DNA from: Bacillota bacterium
GTDB taxonomy: Bacteria > Bacillota > Sulfobacillia > JAJYWN01 > JAJZPE01
DNA length: 64,000 nucleotides
Assembly: GCA_021787335.1 (NCBI GenBank)
Contig: JAJYMC010000003.1
Location: forward strand, 1-64,000
Direction of reading: 5' to 3'
The notes beneath the pieces are model-generated. The model was given only the letters and a program-made list of their open reading frames with translations. It was not told the origin of the DNA and made no database searches. A program made the translations under genes and the position numbers. Numbering within the stretch: the first letter of the stretch is position 1; each line of letters begins with the position of its first letter. Shown here piece after piece: positions 49,436-55,118 of the stretch.

Positions 49436-49462
49436 TTGGCACTCGCAAGGCGAGAGTGCTAG
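49436..49462 (+). promoter_or_regulatory. CIRCE operator (HrcA binding site)
   Basis: TTGGCACTC, 9-bp spacer, GAGTGCTAG. It matches the CIRCE consensus (TTAGCACTC-N9-GAGTGCTAA) with two changes, one per arm. It covers the transcription start of the hrcA-chaperonin operon, so HrcA autoregulates and represses the chaperone genes. Confidence 0.96.
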
Positions 49463-49552: not shown

Positions 49553-50599
49553 ATGTCGGACCACACGCATGATCCGGATTCCCGAAAGTTCGCCATCCTC
49601 ATCGCCGTCGTCGACGATTACATCCAGACCGGCGAGCCCGTGGGTTCGCTGGCTCTGTTGGCCCGGCACGACCTGGGGGTCAGCCCGGCCACCATCCGCA
49701 ACGAGATGGCCGAGCTCGAGAACCTGGGCTATCTGCAACAGCCGCACACCTCGGCCGGCCGCGTTCCGTCCGCCAAGGGCTATCGGCTCTACGTCGATTC
49801 CATTTCCGAGCCGACCGGCCTCGAGGACGTCGAGGCCCGCTGGATCCGCGAGGCCTACGATGCCCAGCGCGACGCGACCACGCTCATCCAGCAGACGGCC
49901 CGGCTGGTCTCGGAGGCTACCAGCTATACGGCCATGGTCCTCGGGCCGCGTTACGCCAAGGCCGTCTTCCGCGACCTGAAGTTCCTGCGGCTCCCCGGCG
50001 GTCGCCTGCTGATGGTCCTGACCACCGATGTCGGCCTCCTCGAGCACCGGGTCATCGACCTGCCCGACGGCCTGACCGACGAGGACCTGGCCGAGGTCTC
50101 GCGCAACCTGAACCAGAGCCTGCGCGGGCTCATCCTCGGCAAGCTGACCCGCGGCTACGTCCGCACGTTGGGCACCGGCTCGGCCGCGCAGCGCTGGCTC
50201 GTCGGCGCCATCTTCGACGCCCTCGGGGGGACCGGGCAGGCCGACGCCGACGACAAGGTCTACCTCGGCGGCACGGCCAACATCCTGAGCCAGCCTGACT
50301 TCGGCGACCTCGACGTGGTCCGCGACCTCCTGGGCTTTCTCGAGCGCGACCGGCTCGTGTCGGAGTTGCTCAGCCGGCCGCCGGCCGGCCACGTCCAGGT
50401 GTTCATCGGCGCGGAGAACCCCTATCAGGAACTGCAGAGCTGCAGCCTGGTCATGGCCGCCTTCGGGGCCGGCGAGCGGGTCATGGGCACCGTCGGTGTC
50501 CTCGGACCGACCCGCATGCGCTACGGCCACGTGATGTCCGTCGTCAGTTACGTCTCCGGGCAGTTGACCAACGTCCTCACCCGCCAGATGCGGCGGTGA
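49553..50599 (+). CDS. hrcA: Heat-inducible transcriptional repressor HrcA
   Basis: 348 aa. The N-terminal winged helix includes ILIAVVDDYIQTGEPVGS and GVSPATIRNEMAELENLGYL, followed by QQPHTSAGRVPSAKGYRLYV. The central GAF-like domain and C-terminal YGHVMSVVSYVSGQLTNVL complete the family. ATG 49553 with SD gagggaagagg. It binds the CIRCE element upstream; activity normally depends on the chaperonin, here the unusual group III type. Confidence 0.97.
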   Translation: MSDHTHDPDSRKFAILIAVVDDYIQTGEPVGSLALLARHDLGVSPATIRNEMAELENLGYLQQPHTSAGRVPSAKGYRLYVDSISEPTGLEDVEARWIREAYDAQRDATTLIQQTARLVSEATSYTAMVLGPRYAKAVFRDLKFLRLPGGRLLMVLTTDVGLLEHRVIDLPDGLTDEDLAEVSRNLNQSLRGLILGKLTRGYVRTLGTGSAAQRWLVGAIFDALGGTGQADADDKVYLGGTANILSQPDFGDLDVVRDLLGFLERDRLVSELLSRPPAGHVQVFIGAENPYQELQSCSLVMAAFGAGERVMGTVGVLGPTRMRYGHVMSVVSYVSGQLTNVLTRQMRR

Positions 50600-50627: not shown

Positions 50628-52220
50628 TTGTCCAACGTCAAGCAGGTCTCCAGCGGCTCCGAAGTCGACGAGCGACTGGCCGCGCTATTGACCAACGCCA
50701 ACGCCGTACGGGCCATCGCCTCGGCCGTCGAGGGCACCATCGGGCCCAAGGGGCTCGACACGATGCTCGTCGACCGCTTCGGCGAAGTCGTCATCACCAA
50801 CGACGGCATCACCATCCTGACCCGCATGGAGGTCAACCACCCGGCCGCCCGGATGGTCATCAACACCGCCAAGGCCCAGGAGGAAGAGGTGGGCGACGGC
50901 ACGACCACGGCCACCATCATGGCCGGGGCCCTCCTCGGCGAGGGCGTCAACCAGGTCGCCCGCGGCGTCCCGGTGACCCGGGTCATCGAGGGCATCCGCT
51001 ACGGCGTCCGCCTGGCCATCGACCTCATCAAGGAGAAGGCCATCAAGGTCGCGGGCCTCGACGACCAACTCCTGCGCCGGGTGGCGCTGATCGCCGGCCG
51101 CGAGCACGAGGACATCGCCGACCTCGTCGTCGGCGCGGCCCGGATGATCGGGCCCGAGAAGCTCCTCGAAGCTCACTTCAAGCTGGCCGACACGGTCATC
51201 TCCGAGGAGGGCGCCGAGAACGAGGTCTTCCTCGGGGTCATCGTCGACAAGGAACGGCTCAACAAGCAGATGCCGCGGGAGGTCCGCGAGGCCCGCGTCC
51301 TCATCATCGACGACGCCCTGGAGCCCGAGGAACTCGAGGACGAGGCCCTCTCGACCGAAGCCGGTTTCGCCCGTTACATGGAGCTCCAGGAGGAGTTCAA
51401 GAAGAACCTCCGCAAGCTGGTAGAGCTCGGGGTCAACGTGGTCCTCGTCGACCGCGGGGTCGACGACCTGGCTGAAGAGGTCCTGACCGACGCCGGCGTC
51501 CTCGTCCTGAGCCGGGTCTCCTCGCGCGAGCTGCGCAAGGCGGCCGAGCACACCGGGGCCCGGACGATCAAGCGGACGGCCCTTCGCAAGGAACCCGACG
51601 ACATCGCCCGGTACCTCGGCCGGGCCGAGCGGGTCTACGAAGATGAGAAGCTCGAGCAGACCCGTCTGGTCGGGGGCGGCGGGAAGCCGATGGCCACCAT
51701 CCTGGTGGGCGCGGCCACCGAGGAGGTCGTCGGCGAACGCGAGCGCATCGCCAAAGACGCCGCTTCGGCGGTGCAGGTGGCCTTCAGGGCCGGGGTCGTC
51801 CCCGGGGGCGGCGCTATCGAGCTGGCCGTCGGCCGTGAGCTGGCCAAGCGCCGCGACGGGGCCAAGGGGATGAGCGTCTACGGTGTCGACTGCGTCGTCG
51901 AGGCCCTGAAGAAGCCGCTGGCCCAGATCGTCGGCAACGCCGGCTTCAACCCGCTGGAGAAGGTCGGCGACGTCATCGCCGCCCAGACCCGGCGGAAGCG
52001 CGACTCGCTGGCCGTCAACTGCGACAGCGGGGACATCGCCGACATGCTCGAACTGGGCGTGGTCGATCCGGCCCTGGTGAAGATCCATGCCCTGCGGGCC
52101 GCCGGGGAGATCGCCGAGGCCATCCTCCGCATCGACACCATCATCAAGATGAAAGAGCAGAAGGACCAGGCCGCGGCGGGCTCATCGGGCACGAGCGAGG
52201 ATTTCTCGAAGAGCTTCTAG
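50628..52220 (+). CDS. Group III (archaeal-like) chaperonin, TCP-1/cpn60 family
   Basis: 530 aa. Thermosome-like rather than GroEL-like: NANAVRAIASAVEGTIGPKG, MLVDRFGEVVITNDGITIL, VGDGTTTATIMAGALLGEG (catalytic GDGTT) and VPGGGAIELAVGRELAKRR. Group III chaperonins occur in a few Bacillota such as Carboxydothermus, sit in the dnaK locus and need no GroES because a built-in lid closes the cage. Start TTG 50628 has SD aaggaggg, 28 bp after hrcA. The C-terminus is Gly/Ser-rich (AAAGSSGTSEDFSKSF) rather than the GGM repeat of GroEL. Confidence 0.93.
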   Translation: MSNVKQVSSGSEVDERLAALLTNANAVRAIASAVEGTIGPKGLDTMLVDRFGEVVITNDGITILTRMEVNHPAARMVINTAKAQEEEVGDGTTTATIMAGALLGEGVNQVARGVPVTRVIEGIRYGVRLAIDLIKEKAIKVAGLDDQLLRRVALIAGREHEDIADLVVGAARMIGPEKLLEAHFKLADTVISEEGAENEVFLGVIVDKERLNKQMPREVREARVLIIDDALEPEELEDEALSTEAGFARYMELQEEFKKNLRKLVELGVNVVLVDRGVDDLAEEVLTDAGVLVLSRVSSRELRKAAEHTGARTIKRTALRKEPDDIARYLGRAERVYEDEKLEQTRLVGGGGKPMATILVGAATEEVVGERERIAKDAASAVQVAFRAGVVPGGGAIELAVGRELAKRRDGAKGMSVYGVDCVVEALKKPLAQIVGNAGFNPLEKVGDVIAAQTRRKRDSLAVNCDSGDIADMLELGVVDPALVKIHALRAAGEIAEAILRIDTIIKMKEQKDQAAAGSSGTSEDFSKSF

Positions 52221-52278
52221 CGCCGGCCGCGACAGGCGCGGGCGCGAAGGCGCCGCGCGATAGCGGGAGGTCTTGAGC

Positions 52279-52551
52279 GTGAGCGAGAGTGCGGGCGGGA
52301 GCCGTTCCGGCGGACCGAGCCCTCAGGCGGTCGCCGCCTACCTGGCCGACGAGTTCCGGGACCGCGAGGGCATCGACCTGCGCCGCGACGAGCGGGCCTG
52401 GGCCCAGCTGCAGCAGGCGGCCCGACGGGTCATCGCTGACCTCGACCGTCGCCCGGTGACCAACGTCAATCTTCCGTGCATAACCTCCGACGCCGCCGGG
52501 CCGCGGCACCTCGACGTCACCGTGACCCGGGGGATCCTGGCCGGGCTCTGA
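52279..52551 (+). CDS. DnaK-like fragment (Hsp70 nucleotide-binding-domain helical segment)
   Basis: 90 aa. After a Ser/Gly-rich start, AAYLADEFRDREGIDLRRDE, NVNLPCITSDAAGPRHLDVT and VTRGILAGL follow DnaK residues of roughly 210-290 (YLADEF..GIDLxxD..A...L..AAE.....L....xxINLPxITxxAxGPKHLxxxLTR). The phosphate loops, GGEDFD and the peptide-binding domain are all absent. It has a proper SD (gggagg) and GTG start. Either a dnaK remnant or a standalone domain. The site is where grpE-dnaK would be expected. Confidence 0.75.
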   Translation: MSESAGGSRSGGPSPQAVAAYLADEFRDREGIDLRRDERAWAQLQQAARRVIADLDRRPVTNVNLPCITSDAAGPRHLDVTVTRGILAGL

Positions 52552-52610
52552 CCCGCCAGGTTACCGCATCCTCAATCCGCGTGTGCTTCGTCAAAGGAGT
52601 CGCGCCCCCT

Positions 52611-52712: not shown

Positions 52713-53798
52713 CTAAGCTATCCCCCGGCGCAGGATGTTGATCGCGGCGTTCACGTCCCGATGAAGTGAAGTTCCGCACTTCAGGCACCTGTGCCATCTC
52801 TGCGACAAGGACTTCTTGACGACACAGCCGCAACCGCTGCAGGCCTGTGATGTGTTCCGCGGGTCAACCCGGACAACCTGACGCCCAGCCTCTACCGCTT
52901 TGGCCTTCAGGATGTTGAGAAAGAGGTCCCAACCCGCATCGCTGATGCATCCTGCCAGACGGTGGTTCTTGAGCATGTTCCCTACCTTCAGATCCTCCAC
53001 GGCGATGAGCCCGTATCTATCGACCAATGACCGAGCAACCTTATGGGCCGTATCCTTCCGCCGACTGGCAATATGCAGGTGCGCCTTGGCAAGCTGTTGG
53101 ACGGCTTTCTTACGGCGATTGGAGCCCTTCCTCCGGCGTGATACTTGCCGCTGCAATCGCTTTAGGTTTCGTTCCGCCTTGCGCAGATGCTTGGATGCCG
53201 GGAAGAACTCACCATCGCTGGTGATAGCGAAGGATTCAAGCCCCAAGTCCACACCACAAACATTGTCTGATGGCGGCAGGACAACGGGTTCAACTTCGCA
53301 GGAGAATGAGGCGTACCAGCCATCGGCCAGTTTCCGAACCGTAACCGTCTTGATCTTGCCTTCCGGCGAGCGGTGTAGTTTGATCCTCAGCTTTCCAGCG
53401 TTCTGGATGTACAGGCGTCCATCTTTGAGGCCACACCCGTCACCGTAGGACGGGAACGTGATCGAGTGGTAGCGGCCCTTGCCCTTGAAGCGAGGATAGC
53501 CCGGCTTCTCACCTGCTTTCACCCGGCGGAAGAACGCTTGGAACGCTTTGTCCAAGCGGCGAAGCACATCCTGAGTGGCAGAGAAGTTTACCTTGGCCAG
53601 GTAGGAATTCCGCCTCCGTTGTTCCTTGAGCGTATTGGCTTGGTCGTAGTAGTTCAGGGACTTACCTTCGTTCTGGTAGGCATCCCGGCGTTCGGCCAGA
53701 GAGCGGTTATACAGGTGGCGACAGGTCTCCAGCATCTCGGTTAGCGTCATCTCCTGGGCCTTGGTCGGGTACAGACGGTACTGAAAGGCTTTGAGCAC
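52713..53798 (-). CDS. tnpB: TnpB RNA-guided endonuclease (IS605 OrfB)
   Basis: 361 aa from GTG 53798 (LKAFQYRLYPTKAQEMTL); a longer frame begins at 53846. RuvC residues are intact: Asp in NVCGVDLGLESFAIT, Glu in LIAVEDLKVGNML, Asp in HRDVNAAINILRR. The zinc ribbon CSGCGCVVKKSLSQRWHRC plus LKCG is complete. TnpB is the ancestor of Cas12 and cuts DNA guided by RNA from the element's right end. It lies antisense within the heat-shock locus, between the DnaK fragment and dnaJ. Confidence 0.93.
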   Translation of the reverse strand: MLKAFQYRLYPTKAQEMTLTEMLETCRHLYNRSLAERRDAYQNEGKSLNYYDQANTLKEQRRRNSYLAKVNFSATQDVLRRLDKAFQAFFRRVKAGEKPGYPRFKGKGRYHSITFPSYGDGCGLKDGRLYIQNAGKLRIKLHRSPEGKIKTVTVRKLADGWYASFSCEVEPVVLPPSDNVCGVDLGLESFAITSDGEFFPASKHLRKAERNLKRLQRQVSRRRKGSNRRKKAVQQLAKAHLHIASRRKDTAHKVARSLVDRYGLIAVEDLKVGNMLKNHRLAGCISDAGWDLFLNILKAKAVEAGRQVVRVDPRNTSQACSGCGCVVKKSLSQRWHRCLKCGTSLHRDVNAAINILRRGIA

Positions 53799-53981
53799 CC
53801 CGCTCACCGCCCTTTCTGGGACTCGATGTAAGGCGAACCGCTTCATCCGTGGCAGCGCTTACCAACCACAACCAGCAGAACTGGTGTTCGCAGTCCATAA
53901 CTGTCTGGCAGCATCATGCTGAGAGGAGGGAGGGGCGTATTCCTCCGCCGTTTCAAAGCGGCGGTTCCTGCGCCTGGATTC

Positions 53982-55118
53982 ATGACCGACAAACGAGACT
54001 ATTACGAAGTCCTGGGGGTCGGACGGTCGACCGGTCAGGATGACATCAAGCGCGCCTACCGTCAACTCGCCAGGCAGCACCACCCCGACGCCAACCCGGG
54101 CGACCCCTCGGCCGGAGAGCGTTTCAAGGAGATCAACGAGGCCTACGAGGTCCTCAGCGACCCTGACAAACGCGCCCGTTACGACCAGTTCGGCCACGCC
54201 GGACTGGGCCGCGGGGTCAACGGGGCCGGCCCCGGGGCGGACTTCGGCCCCTTCGGCGACCTCGGCGGCATCTTCGACGCCTTCTTCGGCGGCGGCCGTC
54301 CGGGCGGTCGGCGCGGCCCCGAGCCGGGGGCCGACCTGCGTTACGACATGGAGCTGTCCCTCGAGGAAGCGGCCAGCGGGGTGACCCGTGAGATCCAGTT
54401 CAACCGCTGGGACTCCTGCCCCATCTGCGGCGGCAGCGGCGCCAAGCCGGGGACCAAGCCGGTGACCTGCCCCAAGTGCCACGGCACGGGCGAGATCCGC
54501 TTCAGTCAGAGCGGCTTCTTCGGCCAGTTCATCAACGTCCGCCCCTGCGACCGCTGCGGCGGCACGGGCCGCATCGTCGAGACGCCCTGCCCGGACTGCA
54601 AGGGGAAGGGCCGCGTCTACCGGCCTCGGAAGCTCGAGGTCAAGCTGCCGCCGGGGGTCGATGACGGTTCGCGGCTGCGGCTCCAGGGCGAGGGCGAGGG
54701 TGGCCCGAACGGCGGTCCCGCCGGTGACCTCTACGTCATCGTCAGCGTCAAGCCGCACCCGGTCTTCAAACGCGACGGGACGGAGATCTACTGCGACGTG
54801 CCGATCAATTTCGTCCAGGCCGCCCTGGGGGCGGAGATCGAAGTGCCGACTCTCGACGGCCCGTCCAACCTGAAGATCCCCGAAGGGACCCAGACCGACA
54901 CCGTCTTCCGCCTGAAGGGCAAGGGCATGCCCAGCCTGCGCGGCTACGGCCGCGGCGACGAGCACGTCCGGGTGGTTGTCCAGACGCCCAAGCGCCTCAC
55001 GGCCGAGCAGCGCCGGGCGCTCCTTGATTTCGCCAAGGCGAGCGGCGAAGAGGCTCGCGGGACGCACCCCGGTGGGGCGGCCGCGGCCTGGTACAAGCGA
55101 AGGGGGACGGCCAATTGA
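53982..55118 (+). CDS. dnaJ: Chaperone DnaJ
   Basis: 378 aa. J domain residues 1-70 ([23 protein letters not shown] in [10 protein letters not shown]), a G/F region, then four CxxCxGxG zinc repeats ([32 protein letters not shown]) and the C-terminal substrate-binding domain. Intact type I DnaJ. No good SD is seen before ATG 53982; the upstream 130 bp look like insertion-element sequence, so expression signals may have been replaced. Its stop codon lies at the border of a second IS605-like relic. Confidence 0.96.

Follow-up and report, generated by a model that had tools for sequence, protein, structure and literature searches.

The open reading frame of 90 codons that follows the chaperonin gene in the window, the 64,000-nucleotide stretch of DNA analysed here, very probably encodes a conserved, selected, stand-alone protein that corresponds to subdomain IIB of DnaK and derives from it (hereinafter mini-DnaK). 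On the grounds of sequence and gene context, we tentatively propose that this protein might be the exapted subdomain IIB of the dnaK that belonged to the hrcA operon of this bacterial class, and could serve as a candidate chaperonin-docking co-chaperone.

The recognition of the reading frame as a fragment of the nucleotide domain of DnaK, made originally from the DNA letters alone, is borne out by a match to positions 214-297 of the Pfam HSP70 profile (E 4.8e-11) and an alignment with residues 233-306 of E. coli DnaK (E about 5e-14). However, the segment, which had been placed before subdomain IIB, is subdomain IIB itself, that is, residues 229-306 in the Hsc70 numbering (PMC2940730). Since the span of mini-DnaK, with helix 8, helix 9 and the beta-hairpin, matches these limits, its ends fall near the boundaries of one structural subdomain. 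The AlphaFold model obtained with 13 homologues shows a pair of long helices together with a hairpin (pLDDT 84.8, pTM 0.73), a Foldseek search aligned it with the IIB portion of DnaK structures to within 0.7-1.0 A over 71-76 residues, and the most diverged copy, that of genome G023, is also confidently predicted to fold (pLDDT 90.3), so that mini-DnaK is homologous to residues 229-306 in both sequence and predicted fold. Being confined to subdomain IIB, it is not an actin-like ATPase domain with the nucleotide-binding residues, and the substrate-binding domain and the lid are missing as well, the frame stopping at the equivalent of residue ~308. With the NCBIfam models of DnaK, the cut-offs of which are 648-1019 bits, mini-DnaK scores 51-57 bits, and neither NCBIfam nor Pfam contains a dedicated model.

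The position of the gene in a chaperone operon and its GTG start with a well-spaced Shine-Dalgarno sequence, both of which had been noted, were confirmed: hrcA and a group III chaperonin gene lie upstream, dnaJ lies downstream, and a CIRCE-like operator stands in front (Table 1). An in-frame TTG at 52273 is just 2 nt away from GGGAGG. The Ser/Gly-rich N-terminus, noticed at the same time, is present in the window's copy but characterizes some lineages only, with 5 of the 13 copies starting at the first helix. Because the CIRCE site puts the operon under HrcA control, mini-DnaK should be co-produced with the chaperonin in heat stress. The closest natural solved structure to this chaperonin is the bacterial archaeal-like chaperonin 5x9u/5x9v and not GroEL; a separate GroEL is encoded in the same genome (G000:C14).

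Table 1. Features of the chaperone operon in the window
Feature	Position	Strand	Remarks
CIRCE-like operator (HrcA site)	49436..49462	+	2 mismatches to TTAGCACTC-N9-GAGTGCTAA; 0 expected in shuffles
hrcA, heat-shock repressor	49553..50599	+	ORF; neighbour kept in the relatives examined
Group III (archaeal-like) chaperonin	50628..52220	+	PDB 5x9u/5x9v match, E 4e-146
Shine-Dalgarno sequence GGGAGG of mini-DnaK	52265..52270	+	8 nt upstream of GTG; same layout in sister species
mini-DnaK, stand-alone DnaK subdomain IIB, 90 aa	52279..52551	+	GTG 52279, stop 52551
Old dnaJ ribosome-binding site (aaaggag), stranded by insertion	52594..52601	+	Identical sequence precedes dnaJ in sister species
tnpB of an IS200/IS605-type element; insertion separates mini-DnaK from dnaJ	52713..53846	-	
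dnaJ	53982..55118	+	Native start at 53982

The tnpB element has cost the window's dnaJ its own ribosome-binding site and its continuity with the operon, and elsewhere in this genome it has three more complete relatives, 77-79% identical in DNA, and one that is broken. At the junction of mini-DnaK and dnaJ it is absent from the other mini-DnaK genomes in which this junction is readable, and the possibility that mini-DnaK is a fragment made by the tnpB insertion was rejected on this ground.

Stand-alone homologues beside group III chaperonins do exist. The protein itself, used as query, already picked up short separate frames in relatives, and with a 13-row profile a separate IIB gene was identified in 13 of the 154 species genomes that represent the window's class; the 13 belong to seven families (f1, f2, f15, f17, f21, f22 and f28). 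The group III chaperonin is encoded in 44 of the 154 genomes, including all 13 carriers of mini-DnaK, and in each of the 13 the mini-DnaK gene is located directly downstream of the chaperonin gene. The next gene is dnaJ in 12 of the carriers (in G018, the contig ends there), and nothing intervenes in 11 of these 12, the exception being the window's genome. In 6 of the 13, the start of mini-DnaK overlaps the end of the chaperonin gene (spacing of -1 to -11 nt); its stop overlaps the dnaJ start, or lies within a few bases of it, in most genomes. Most of the genomes are draft assemblies, probably from metagenomes. Adjacency depends on the contigs, and in G042 and G018 the gene lies close to a contig end. 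Outside the window's class, no mini-DnaK was seen in a sample of 398 genomes of the phylum, and none was found in viral contigs; where a genome gave more than one match (42 genomes), the second falls within a much longer DnaK-like frame. A second lone IIB piece, located near a thiC-like gene and lacking chaperone neighbours (G047, L036 7770-8093, minus strand), has retained the canonical nucleotide residues, in contrast to mini-DnaK, and is probably real debris. In two genomes (L027 2163-3224; L041 7775-8635), inserts of ~1.06 and ~0.86 kb, possibly an intein or intron, interrupt the chaperonin gene itself at one shared residue (about 39/40), and in G018 the chaperonin frame is split near residue 168/169 (L042, about 1385) by a frameshift or an assembly error.

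Mini-DnaK is under purifying selection. In two groups of three genomes, pairwise dN/dS amounted to 0.33, 0.41 and 0.24 (the window's family) and to 0.24, 0.17 and 0.14 (genus g29), that is, 0.14-0.41 overall, with upper bootstrap limits of 0.27-0.75 and no more than 0.25% of the replicates reaching 1; for comparison, HrcA and PrmA in the window's family show 0.26-0.32 and 0.37-0.45, respectively. Thus the substitution pattern is not neutral, and conservation and dN/dS together reject a random remnant. Of the two fates originally envisaged for this gene, a domesticated mini-protein agrees with the same placement in 13 species of seven families, the purifying selection and the predicted folding of the most diverged copy, whereas a decaying gene finds no support as the present state, even though the origin was a reduced dnaK.

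This origin can be traced through three states of the operon. In the full state, the order is hrcA-chaperonin-grpE-dnaK-dnaJ (e.g. G014, G021 and G037, as well as the outgroups G187, G227 and G209); the mini state, found in the 13 carriers, is hrcA-chaperonin-mini-dnaJ; and in the empty state, hrcA-chaperonin-dnaJ, the chaperonin gene and dnaJ are coupled directly, mostly with 0-81 nt between them. In two genera of family f37, a 286-aa nucleotidyltransferase-like reading frame lies between chaperonin and dnaJ (L140, L141). The mini and empty genomes in which a second locus was examined have a different dnaK, mostly beside an hspR-type regulator and grpE, sometimes with cbpA and clpB; in the window's genome this set is found on contig C9 (L025), with an Hsp20-type gene inside the dnaK-grpE-cbpA group (L025 6021-6428, minus strand). 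The existence of full and empty relatives and of the second, HspR-type dnaK in mini and empty genomes suggests that the native dnaK was cut in place to IIB, which was then kept. Accordingly, a full dnaK at this place, which is indeed seen in some relatives and had been thought to speak against domestication, marks the origin of the gene and does not refute its domestication. The simplest reading appears to be that, with the second set present, the native grpE-dnaK became redundant and was afterwards either trimmed to IIB on the spot or lost altogether. With a full HspR-type DnaK on C9, mini-DnaK as the only DnaK of the genome was rejected. Origin from the HspR-type DnaK is less likely, since mini-DnaK is slightly more similar to the native type (43% identity on average and 49% at best for the window's copy) and shares D297 with it.

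In the tree of IIB sequences, the HspR-type DnaKs cluster separately (support 99), and the 13 mini-DnaKs form one group as well, with a support of only 85 and long branches. The carriers are scattered over the tree of operon genes, in which the deep forks are weak and an irreversible scheme needs about two reductions. With such scattering and such forks, a single reduction followed by many losses and more than one reduction are both possible.

The residues that were kept and lost differ between the two faces of the subdomain. Among the nucleotide-contact residues, all invariant in the 58 DnaKs compared, E267 is retained in 2 of the 13 mini-DnaKs and K270 and S274 in none; Q260 and R261 are likewise lost. 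In the hairpin tip (P..GPxHLD), P284 and H295 are present in all 13 copies, and P293, L296 and D297 in 12. When the positions conserved in at least 90% of 37 native-type DnaKs are considered, mini-DnaK has kept 83% of them in the tip (284-297) and 66% in the hairpin, compared with 40% in helix 9 (permutation p 0.04 for the difference between hairpin and helix 9). Hence the face that closes the ATP cleft has been given up and the exposed loop retained. A free IIB that is devoid of the nucleotide residues cannot be an ATPase, and an exposed loop that has been conserved suggests docking to another protein.

The following course of events can be envisaged. Once the HspR-type set had made the native DnaK dispensable, the operon would have lost grpE and the greater part of dnaK, whereas IIB, as the bearer of the protein-docking surface of DnaK, would have been spared. 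The resulting mini-DnaK would be an ATP-independent docking co-chaperone, the conserved hairpin tip of which would bind another member of the chaperone network. The neighbouring group III chaperonin would be the most likely partner, and mini-DnaK would take over the docking that is attributed to full DnaK in intact operons. The strict pairing of the two genes makes the chaperonin the first candidate partner; the absence of mini-DnaK from other chaperonin-bearing genomes, those in the empty state, indicates that the chaperonin can dispense with it. A scan for chaperonin positions that track the presence of mini-DnaK yielded weak candidates only, by exploratory statistics that ignore phylogeny. 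According to published work, the group III chaperonin gene sits in the DnaK operon, prefoldin is missing from bacteria, and DnaK has been proposed, by analogy with the CCT-Hsc70 complex, to bring clients to the chaperonin (PMC5220055, PMC5635000).

The hairpin that mini-DnaK has kept is also the contact surface for GrpE (PMC10825016), which makes GrpE a real alternative partner. Mini-DnaK could offer the IIB hairpin to the GrpE of the HspR-type set and compete with DnaK, so that nucleotide exchange would be tuned or GrpE would be coupled to the chaperonin operon. Subdomain IIB is the binding place of all known nucleotide exchange factors (PMC2940730), and the 276-302 hairpin of DnaK, the tip of which is the best-kept part of mini-DnaK, accounts for much of the affinity for GrpE: deletion of 285-295 weakens binding about 115-fold and Y285R about 30-fold, with no effect of Q260R (PMC10825016). 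However, the position of Y285, occupied by Phe in nearly all DnaKs and by Phe or Cys in mini-DnaKs, is Cys in 6 of the 13 copies, among them that of the window; the parts of the GrpE interface that belong to subdomains IA and IB are absent; and the gene is linked to the chaperonin and never to grpE. Such a regulator appears less likely than docking on the chaperonin, but is its main rival. Much less probable is that mini-DnaK has DnaJ or the HspR-type DnaK itself as its partner, for instance as a decoy of a client or co-chaperone site of DnaK. Descent from DnaK and the adjacency to dnaJ would fit this role, but the known J-domain site on DnaK is located in IIA, IA and the linker, none of which mini-DnaK possesses, and in the window the mini gene is still intact with a transposon gene separating it from dnaJ.

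It also seems improbable that mini-DnaK is a slowly decaying dnaK remnant, kept just as a spacer or translational coupler of chaperonin and dnaJ. The full, mini and empty states among relatives, the overlaps of the frame with its neighbours and the likelihood of several independent losses are what such a remnant would leave, yet the constraint acts at the amino-acid level, residues are retained selectively rather than evenly, the most diverged copy still has a confident predicted fold, and operons in the empty state achieve direct coupling of chaperonin and dnaJ without any mini-DnaK.

Mini-DnaK bears on the question of how group III chaperonins receive their clients, for which DnaK has been proposed, rather vaguely, as the partner on account of the shared operon (PMC5220055, PMC5635000). 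Here, evolution has stripped DnaK to one 80-residue subdomain beside the chaperonin, which suggests that an Hsp70 subdomain can exist as a separate protein. Being small and easily made, this protein renders the DnaK-chaperonin proposal testable, as well as GrpE binding, and Hsp70 and the group III chaperonin may well have in it the link that has been missing between them. A bolder and rather doubtful extension would be that IIB, now a dedicated co-chaperone of the group III chaperonin, is at the same time the part by which Hsp70 contacts group II-like chaperonins.

The open-access literature searched contains no mention of mini-DnaK, an earlier remark being possible in Techtmann and Robb 2010 or Cuellar 2008. 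The Carboxydothermus-type hrcA-grpE-dnaK-dnaJ operon with a group III chaperonin is the same operon with the same chaperonin family, except that it contains grpE-dnaK where the mini-DnaK genomes have the IIB-only gene, which the two papers searched on this operon do not mention (PMC5635000, PMC5220055). With DnaK (Hsp70), mini-DnaK has in common the sequence, the predicted fold and the hairpin tip of IIB; it differs in lacking the rest of Hsp70 and the nucleotide-contact residues and in having its own gene with its own start. Prefoldin, which delivers clients to group II chaperonins in archaea and eukaryotes, resembles mini-DnaK in the supposed role by analogy only, the folds being unrelated. 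Finally, a complex of CCT with the nucleotide domain of Hsc70 was reportedly described by Cuellar in 2008; in that eukaryotic complex, it is a full Hsp70 that is involved, but there, too, a surface of the Hsp70 nucleotide domain docks on a group II-like chaperonin.
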